From Salvelinus alpinus (taxonomy: Eukaryota > Chordata > Actinopteri > Salmoniformes > Salmonidae), in NCBI RefSeq assembly GCF_045679555.1, contig NC_092092.1, positions 20,072,469 to 20,136,468 of the forward strand: 64,000 nucleotides of DNA, in the 5' to 3' direction. The translations under genes and the position numbers were made by a program. Shown in pieces: positions 44,101 to 47,100 of the stretch. A model generated the notes under the pieces. The model had not been told where the DNA came from and made no database searches. It saw nothing but the letters and a program-made list of their open reading frames with translations. Each line of letters starts with the position of its first letter. Within the stretch, counting starts at the first letter, position 1.

Positions 44101-47100
44101 GTGGGAGAGTGCATTTGTTATAAAATAATATTTGATTTATTAGTGTTGCGCCATCATTTTTTAAATATAATATAACCATATACAATTTCAGTATCACGTC
44201 TTAGTGGTGGACTGTACCATCCACATGGTCTCTGCAATGGGTTAGTCCACTCAGTCAGGCGCGAATCAGATAGGTGTCTTGTGCACCATAAAGAAATGAA
44301 TACAAATAATTACGACTGGTCGACTAAATGGGGCCAGCCCTACATCACACATATTCTAAGTGATTTCAATGGGTCTTTCTCCATTCTGATTAGTTTTTGG
44401 TTGAATTGAATAGTATAAAACAATTTTCATTTGAGGTAATTTCCACACTGCCACATAGGGCTACACGATATGGGCAAACAATCTAGGCATTATTTTTTAC
44501 CAAATGTTGCAATTGCGATTGACTTGTGATTTAGAGCAAAACACTTAGGTGAACTGTTGGAATCATGGAAATAGAATGATTATTCTAATTCTATAGTTCT
44601 TTGAATACAGTGTTTAACATGACAACTAATTAAAATGCCAGGGAGCAGTTATTGTGACAGGCTAGGAAGCAGTGTTTTCTAGGGGACCTTGGACTACATG
44701 AAATGTTTTCTCTTAGCTACTTCATGTAGCTAATGTTCATTCTTCACGTATTCCTCTTTTATTTAGAAGATACTGACTGGAATGAAGGCGAATATTCTGC
44801 TGTCAGTCAGTGATCTGAGAGGCATGCCGACTTCTAGAACTCTACTCTGTGAAAGATTTTAGCGCTGTGCAAAGGAAATGTAGCTCACTACTGTGCAGCC
44901 GTAACATTTCTACTTGTCGTAGCTTAAGCTAAGAGGGTTTTGACTGTCTTCCCCTCGTCCAGATGAGGATGTCCCTGCAGATATGGTTGTTTTGACTGTG
45001 TCCTCTCTTCCTCTCCAGATGAGGACGTCCCTGCAGATATGGTTGTTTTGACTGTGTCCTCTCTTCCTCTCCAGATGAGGACGTCCCTGCAGATATGGTT
45101 GTTTTGACTGTGTCCCCTCTTCCTCTCCAGATGAGGACGTCCCTGCAGATATGGTTGTTTTGACTGTGTCCTCTCTTCCTCTCCAGATGAGGACGTCCCT
45201 GCAGATATGGTTGTTTTGACTGTGTCCTCTCTTCCTCTCCAGATGAGGACGTCCCTGCAGATATGGTTGTTTTGACTGTGTCCTCTCTTCCTCTCCAGAT
45301 GAGGACGTCCCTGCAGATATGGTTGTTTTGACTGTGTCCTCTCTTCCTCTCCAGATGAGGACGTCCCTGCAGATATGGTTGTTTTGACTGTGTCCTCTCT
45401 TCCTCTCCAGATGAGGACGTCCCTGCAGATATGGTTGTTTTGACTGTGTCCCCTCTTCCTCTCCAGATGAGGACGTCCCTGCAGATATGGTTGTTTTGAC
45501 TGTGTCCCCTCTTCCTCTCCAGATGAGGACGTCCCTGCAGATATGGTTGTTTTGACTGTGTCCCCTCTTCCTCTCCAGATGAGGACGTCCCTGCAGATAT
45601 GGTTGTTTTGACTGTGTCCTCTCTTCCTCTCCAGATGAGGACGTCCCTGCAGATATGGTTGTTTTGACTGTGTCCCCTCTTCCTCTCCAGATGAGGACGT
45701 CCCTGCAGATATGGTTGTTTTGACTGTGTCCCCTCTTCCTCTCCAGATGAGGACGTCCCTGCAGATATGGTTGTTTTGACTGTGTCCTCTCTTCCTCTCC
45801 AGATGAGGACGTCCCTGCAGATATGGTTGTTTTGACTGTGTCCTCTCTTCCTCTCCAGATGAGGACGTCCCTGCAGATATGGTTGTTTTGACTGTGTCCT
45901 CTCTTCCTCTCCAGATGAGGACGTCCCTGCAGATATGGTTGTTTTGACTGTGTCCTCTCTTCCTCTCCAGATGAGGACGTCCCTGCAGATATGGTTGTTT
46001 TGACTGTATCCTCTCTTCCTCTCCAGATGAGGATGTCCCTGCAGATATGGTTGTTTTGACTGTGTCCTCTCTTCCTCTCCAGATGAGGACGTCCCTGCAG
46101 ATATGGTTGTTTTGACTGTGTCCCCTCTTCCTCTCCAGATGAGGACGTCCCTGCAGATATGGTTGTTTTGACTGTGTCCTCTCTTCCTCTCCAGATGAGG
46201 ACGTCCCTGCAGATATGGTTGTTTTGACTGTGTCCCCTCTTCCTCTCCAGATGAGGACGTCCCTGCAGATATGGTTGTTTTGACTGTGTCCTCTCTTCCT
46301 CTCCAGATGAGGACGTCCCTGCAGATATGGTTGTTTTGACTGTGTCCTCTCTTCCTCTCCAGATGAGGACGTCCCTGCAGATATGGTTGTTTTGACTGTG
46401 TCCTCTCTTCCTCTCCAGATGAGGACGTCCCTGCAGATATGGTTGTTTTGACTGTGTCCTCTCTTCCTCTCCAGATGAGGACGTCCCTGCAGATATGGTT
46501 GTTTTGACTGTGTCCTCTCTTCCTCTCCAGATGAGGACGTCCCTGCAGATATGGTTGTTTTGACTGTGTCCCCTCTTCCTCTCCAGATGAGGACGTCCCT
46601 GCAGATATGGTTGTTTTGACTGTGTCCCCTCTTCCTCTCCAGATGAGGACGTCCCTGCAGATATGGTTGCAGAAGAATCCGGTCCAGGAGCTCAGAATAG
46701 TCCGTACCAACTTCGAAGAAAGTCTCTACTACCCAAGAGAACAGCAGCGTGTCCAGCAAAGACTAACATGGAGGTGAGTCATTAGAATGGAATGTGTCCC
46801 AAATGGCTCCCTATAAAGTGCACTATGCCCCGGTCAAAAGCAGTGCACCATATAGATAGACATATGTTATGTAAAACAAACATGATACCTCTGACATGTA
46901 GAATAATGACTAATTTTAGCTCTACTCATGACATTTTTATCTGTTTGCCTGCTGAACATGGATCTGCCATAATTGTTGAGTGCCACTGGTTATAAAGACA
47001 TATTGCAGACATTATAACCTAGACTGTTGAGCAATATCAGTGGGAAATGCATTCCACCCACAATGGTGTCTTTAGCATGTCGTCCTTTCACCCACGGGCT

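Follow-up and report, generated by a model that had tools for sequence, protein, structure and literature searches.

In trout irak3, four repeats of the first 15-17 nt of exon 5 stand immediately upstream of the exon, at positions that appear conserved in both gene copies, though altered, and the exon 5 defined by cDNA begins downstream of the repeats, as set out in the part of the paper covered here (PMC6763605). In intron 7 of human F7, the passage covered describes 37-bp repeats that each bear a donor, among which the exon-adjacent copy alone is normally used (PMC6627357). For competing 3′ splice sites in general, the passages covered of a further study report an overall preference for the upstream site, and Reed and Maniatis, as cited there, likewise favor the upstream 3′ site (PMC9225289). 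According to the same passages, this preference is significantly reduced in the long/long intron class, with a reversal not being stated, and the conclusion of the paper is that exon definition favors the sites closest across the exon; its part on 3′ sites is a transcriptome analysis, and its minigene tests concern 5′ sites (PMC9225289). As for FBXO11, the covered parts of two papers describe a human FBXO11-short that starts at M85 and has weaker NPM1 binding (PMC12807477, PMC7538974).

Here, we analyze an fbxo11 gene of Salvelinus alpinus in which the 3′ splice site of exon 2 lies in a tandem array of 31 copies. We found no description of such a structure in fbxo11, and of the 20 matches listed from 35 in a full-text search, none dealt with the salmonid gene by title or abstract, an absence that is weak, with subscription literature thinly covered.

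Results

The fbxo11 locus and its features

The window, by which we mean the whole stretch of DNA that was analyzed, is 64,000 nt long (G000:C7:20072469-20136468) and belongs to a genome of 2.37 Gb in 928 contigs. The gene was identified as fbxo11 by an F-box-like domain in exons 1-8 (Pfam, 2.7e-19) and by a human FBXO11 query that aligned to the window exon by exon at ~79-100% (tblastn, 13 blocks kept), the query being a 923-residue sequence. Four fbxo11 loci in the genome and an irak3 motif in common with trout fit a salmonid. Exon 1 ends at 26128, as originally predicted, and the features around the exon 2 border are collected in Table 1. Elsewhere in the window, long frames on the minus strand at 932-3370 and 49-1191 match reverse transcriptase (RVT_1), with an endonuclease domain in the 932-3370 frame; these frames are a retrotransposon and not a neighboring gene.

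Table 1. Features of the window fbxo11 gene around the repeated acceptor of exon 2, in window positions.
Feature	Position	Strand
fbxo11 exon 1, coding part (88 nt, end phase 1; donor GTAATG)	26041..26128	+
Array unit 1, diverged (acceptor 44963)	44934..44989	+
29 near-identical 56-bp units (acceptors 45019 to 46587; 29 nt intron tail + 27 nt exon 2 head)	44990..46613	+
Intron tail of the last unit (TTTTGAC branch-point-like, A at -24; pyrimidines 16/17 at -20..-4; CAG)	46614..46642	+
fbxo11 exon 2 (131 nt; repeated head = first 27 nt; then GTGAGT donor)	46643..46773	+
Exon 2 ATG (DMVAEE), with a copy in each unit	46663..46665	+
fbxo11 exon 3	47303..47384	+
fbxo11 exon 4 (F-box; contains the TGA met from acceptor 46587)	47698..47842	+

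A minisatellite whose unit is a complete acceptor

When the whole window was scanned, CAGATGAGG was found 31 times on the plus strand, always within the array (44963, 45019 ... 46643), and the spacing between acceptors was exactly 56 bp in 30/30 intervals. TRF places the array at 44953-46669 (period 56, 30.6 copies, 98% matches, score 3334), which is far beyond chance, and a unit within ~10-100 bp, near-identical copies, and a tandem arrangement make it a minisatellite. The unit holds a complete splice site and a part of the exon in exact register, with a 29 nt intron tail that includes TTTTGAC, a pyrimidine tract, and CAG, followed by 27 nt of exon head.

Over the 56 positions, 30/31 units have between zero and two mismatches to the consensus (19 units none, 10 one, and 1 two), and unit 1 has 19/56 in an ungapped comparison, its intron tail being shorter and diverged. 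The left flank of unit 1 lacks the GATATGGTTG junction, and this unit may represent the original left edge of the array. Thus, the original prediction of 31 near-identical acceptors was correct in the number of acceptors and in their 56-bp register, but 30 of them are near-identical and one is diverged. It was also right that only the last unit runs on into the exon body, which is followed by the GTGAGT donor after 46773.

A probe of two units gave at least 16 matches in the 2.37-Gb genome, all of them in the window array or in a duplicate gene, ruling out a genome-wide satellite. Recursive splicing was ruled out as well, as ATGAGG rather than a donor sits after the acceptor. Because the unit is free of stops on the minus strand, three overlapping frames of 593, 612, and 598 aa run across the array on that strand (44910-46762); we rejected antisense coding, and regard these frames, which are without other support, as a plain by-product.

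Acceptor strength does not distinguish the last copy

At -20 to -4, the fraction of pyrimidines is 0.94 in 30/31 copies and 0.82 in the first copy, compared to 0.65-0.88 in six other acceptors of the same gene. As the pyrimidine content of the copies is near-equal, strength cannot single out the last one. What can single it out is its exon, which alone measures 131 nt from acceptor to donor; the next acceptor upstream (46587) gives an exon of 187 nt and one lying ten units up gives ~690 nt.

TTTTGAC had been described as a perfect branch-point match, which is too strong, as it matches the loose yUnAy pattern of vertebrate branch points, with its A located 24 nt before the exon. An AG-free stretch of 36 nt precedes each of the last two acceptors. 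Use of the last acceptor had also been expected to break the usual preference for the first AG after a branch point, but each AG in the array comes with a branch-point-like motif and a tract of its own, so that the AG used for FBXO11 is itself the first one to follow the last branch point. We considered RNA structure masking the upstream acceptors and rejected it, since a 272-nt segment made of three units and exon 2 gave a z of +1.10, with 174/200 shuffles folding at least as well.

Premature stops follow from the unit length

In silico splicing to the next-to-last acceptor (46587) shifts the frame and leads to a TGA at codon 137, in exon 4, and each of the 29 acceptors above it leads to a TGA at codon 59, in the second retained unit (29/29), in both cases where the original prediction had placed the stops. 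When splicing is coupled to nonsense-mediated decay (poison splicing), non-productive choices lower output, and a premature stop well before the last junction, which is one of the marks of such coupling, is predicted from 30/30 upstream acceptors, yet would be expected of any 56-bp unit. While the stops claimed for all 30 are there, the decay claimed along with them is uncertain, as the codon-59 stop lies only 175 nt from the start codon and start-proximal stops can escape decay.

When the intron part of the 56-bp unit was shuffled, a stop was found in all trials (2000 shuffles at 1, 2, and 5 units upstream and 3000 at 3, 4, and 6), compared to just 3.5% for shuffled 54-bp units. The stops are universal for two reasons: the unit length of 56 cannot be divided by 3, and ATGAGG, the exon head, has a TGA in another frame. 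Therefore, no stop need have been selected, and the shuffles rule out the stops as evidence of selection or design; the earlier argument that they point to a tuned brake on FBXO11 does not survive this control.

Acceptor number differs among the fbxo11 genes of the genome

A 134-bp probe of exon 2 matched with 100% identity at C3:83836506-83836639(-) and with 77% identity at C3:15227004 and C7:34695449, and exon 1 was also matched at 4/4 fbxo11 loci of the genome. The original prediction had pointed to the duplicate locus for a comparison of array length, and the close duplicate on contig C3 indeed has two full copies and a short remnant versus 31 in the window gene. Its two acceptors, at 14711 and 14765 in the locus frame, are 54 bp apart, with a junction (GGTTG followed by TTTTGACTG) identical to that of the window gene, and are preceded by GAGATATGGTTG, likely what remains of a third unit. 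The upstream acceptor of this gene keeps the frame, would add 18 amino acids, and is stop-free across seven joined exons. Each of the two more distant paralogues has a single acceptor, with a recognizable intron tail (TTCTGACTGTGTCCTCT / TTCTGACTGCGTCCTCT), and TRF found no array at the exon 2 acceptor of either. Acceptor copy number, then, differs between homologous loci, with 31 in the window gene, two full units in the duplicate, and one in each distant paralogue, and the non-productive splice choice is not conserved, as the alternative in the C3 duplicate is in frame and the distant paralogues are single-acceptor genes.

The simplest history is that the close pair inherited a single duplication from their ancestor, or that it was later copied between the two genes, with subsequent amplification in the window gene. 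TGTGTCC or TGCGTCC is present in the distant paralogues, as in the 56-bp unit, and TGTC is present in the diverged first unit of the window gene, as in the 54-bp unit. Between the close duplicates, exons 1-2 show 0 differences in 219 nt versus 31 in 573 for exons 3-7 (Fisher P 4.8e-5), and fourfold sites show 0/36 versus 12/78 (Fisher P 0.017). Nucleotide-level constraint, perhaps on splicing signals, may hold exons 1-2, which we offer as a lead only.

Other arrays lie close to exons in both genes

Both close genes share further arrays with the same place and motif but another copy number, as for a 40-bp unit after exon 9 (16 vs 42 copies), and TGGTCTGG arrays with 33/38-bp units are found after exon 11 in both. 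Using one rule for both genes (period of at least 20, at least two copies), arrays at most 45 nt from an exon make up 5/6 in the window gene and 4/7 in the duplicate, with 0.20 and 0.23 expected by random intron placement. Random placement matched the observed proximity in 0/5000 trials for either gene, a result to be read with a 45-nt limit set post hoc, exon ends that are approximate beyond exon 7, and arrays that are non-independent where the two genes share them. At a period of at least 10, the fractions are 5/7 for the window gene and 4/11 for the duplicate.

Four more intron arrays of fbxo11 lie 20-42 nt from an exon (50876-50949, 55600-56239, 56465-56632, and 57119-58000). The one at 56465-56632 consists of six exact 28-bp copies, each with CTGACC, and ends 20 nt before exon 10, so that this repeat likely also duplicates the branch-point region of the exon 10 acceptor. 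Before exon 10 of the C3 duplicate, there is one copy related to the 28-bp unit.

Repeated splice borders elsewhere in the genome

The irak3 motif taken from the trout paper (PMC6763605) has one exact match in the Salvelinus alpinus genome. At exon 5 of this irak3 gene (locus L058), four units are found at spacings of 39, 39, and 40 bp, each composed of an intron tail, CTAG, and an exon head. The three upstream acceptors read into stops in the only open frame of the exon; this is the same automatic effect as in fbxo11, and chance explains the pattern. The flanking introns of the locus contain an array of 34 bp (29.6 copies) and another of 44 bp (21.4 copies).

We also surveyed 30 loci around fn3 matches, 15 of which come from two clusters (C14:37.39-37.61 Mb and C20:28.41-28.46 Mb), and found an array overlapping the fn3 match in 0/30. 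At one of these loci (L055, 1740-1836), an array starts 3 nt after the fn3 match and, by eye, resembles a two-copy repeat of an exon tail plus a GTAGGAG donor.

Discussion

Judging from the sequence, we find it reasonably probable that this is a minisatellite whose unit bears a splice site and from which exon definition would pick the last acceptor, with little leakage to the upstream ones and an array that would be mainly tolerated. At its base, an intron tail and an exon head are duplicated in tandem, with a junction common to the close duplicates and two full copies in one gene versus 31 in the other. A minisatellite has probably taken in the border between intron 1 and exon 2 in one fbxo11 gene, and unequal exchange or slippage would have enlarged the array in the window gene. 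Exon 2 would then be recognized through its own donor at 46773, so that most mRNA would come from acceptor 46643, adjacent to the exon body, and the upstream copies would seldom be used, with leakage going mostly to the nearest ones and giving products with early stops. The array would be tolerated more than selected, and an intact-looking duplicate gene would help in this.

Intron 1 measures ~20 kb, array included, and intron 2 measures 529 nt, which places exon 2 in the long/long class; being flanked by two long introns, it should be recognized by exon definition. By analogy with the use of the exon-nearest copy in F7 (PMC6627357) and trout irak3 (PMC6763605), and following the exon-definition rule in the conclusion of PMC9225289, 46643 would be expected as the main acceptor of fbxo11. 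Against this reading stand the general preference for upstream 3′ sites and a last tract that is no stronger than the others. It is also somewhat surprising that a neutral array would retain 30 strong acceptors beside a constrained gene.

If the upstream acceptors were instead used often, their products would stop and decay, and copy number would set the amount of FBXO11, the tunable brake that was originally proposed. Premature stops predicted for 30/30 upstream acceptors, a pyrimidine content that equals that of the last copy in 29/30, and the transcriptome-wide preference for the upstream 3′ site in the passages covered of PMC9225289 would all suit such a brake. However, the stops come automatically with a 56-bp unit, the arrangement is not conserved, as the duplicate's upstream acceptor is in frame and stop-free over the seven exons tested, and the copy nearest the exon is the one used in the covered descriptions of F7 (PMC6627357) and trout irak3 (PMC6763605), leaving a brake rather unlikely. 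A splicing rheostat coded by array length, having arisen in one of the two duplicates, is quite unlikely; in that case, the 2 bp by which the 56- and 54-bp units differ would have made an in-frame acceptor (18 amino acids) a poison one, and copy number would set FBXO11-long, differing between the duplicates and perhaps between individuals. The extra acceptors could also be helpful, with many branch-point and U2AF sites raising the local concentration of factors and strengthening exon recognition after a 20-kb intron. In line with this, tract and motif are nearly intact in all copies, and exons 1-2 are unchanged between the duplicates (0/219 nt vs 31/573 in exons 3-7), suggesting nucleotide-level constraint; but recent amplification or homogenization accounts equally well for the near-identity, and two copies suffice in the duplicate and one in the distant paralogues, which makes a benefit of this kind quite improbable.

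We regard an isoform switch as very doubtful. Here, the long frame entered through upstream acceptors would stop at codon 59 or 137, and a fraction of ribosomes would restart at the exon 2 ATG, tilting output from FBXO11-long towards FBXO11-short. This ATG (DMVAEE), which we take to be the M85 start of human FBXO11-short, although this M is at 81 in the 923-residue query sequence, is flanked by G at -3 and +4, and the frame from it is open in all the cases listed (k = 0, 1, 2, 3, 5, 10, 30). Each retained unit, however, brings two extra out-of-frame ATGs, one of them in an equally strong context, so that most restarts should be blocked, and in the alignment the exon 2 ATG is absent from the two distant paralogues. 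Arrays can be mis-sized, and the real copy number could be small; still, unit variants are scattered irregularly along this array (10 copies with C, one with two changes, and a diverged first copy), the duplication is independently present in the duplicate gene, and the array is merely 1.7 kb inside an 89.7-Mb contig, all of which makes an assembly artifact most improbable.

The array probably arose from ordinary repeat growth at an unusual place. Thirty near-identical complete acceptors, along with relatives of two copies and one copy, provide a rare natural test of 3′ site choice, in which proximity to the donor across the intron is set against proximity to the donor of the exon itself. In the Salvelinus alpinus genome, at least two genes, fbxo11 and irak3, have splice borders that minisatellites have incorporated, which points to a class, and splice variation in salmonids may have an overlooked source in repeat turnover.

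Among known systems, poison splicing differs in that its use is regulated and conserved, whereas fbxo11 is known here from sequence and the alternative of its duplicate is in frame. NAGNAG tandem acceptors resemble this locus in that several acceptors compete for one exon, but they lie 3 nt apart with one branch point (PMC2951375), whereas those of fbxo11 are 56 nt apart with complete signals each. The DDX3Y/MSY2 minisatellite was set aside as a parallel, since the part of the paper covered concerns transcription start and not splice sites (PMC3039753). As described in the passage covered, F7 shares with fbxo11 a variable minisatellite with a functional splice site in the unit and, in F7, normal use of the exon-adjacent copy, but the sites are donors downstream of the exon in F7 and acceptors upstream of it in fbxo11 (PMC6627357). 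The irak3 exon 5 is likewise in a salmonid gene, with the exon head repeated upstream of the exon and a splice site in the unit; it has four copies versus 31 in fbxo11, and the part of the trout paper covered here contains no test of acceptor choice (PMC6763605). This kind of structure has precedents in irak3 and F7, and what is notable at fbxo11 is the copy number and the natural series of 1, 2, and 31.
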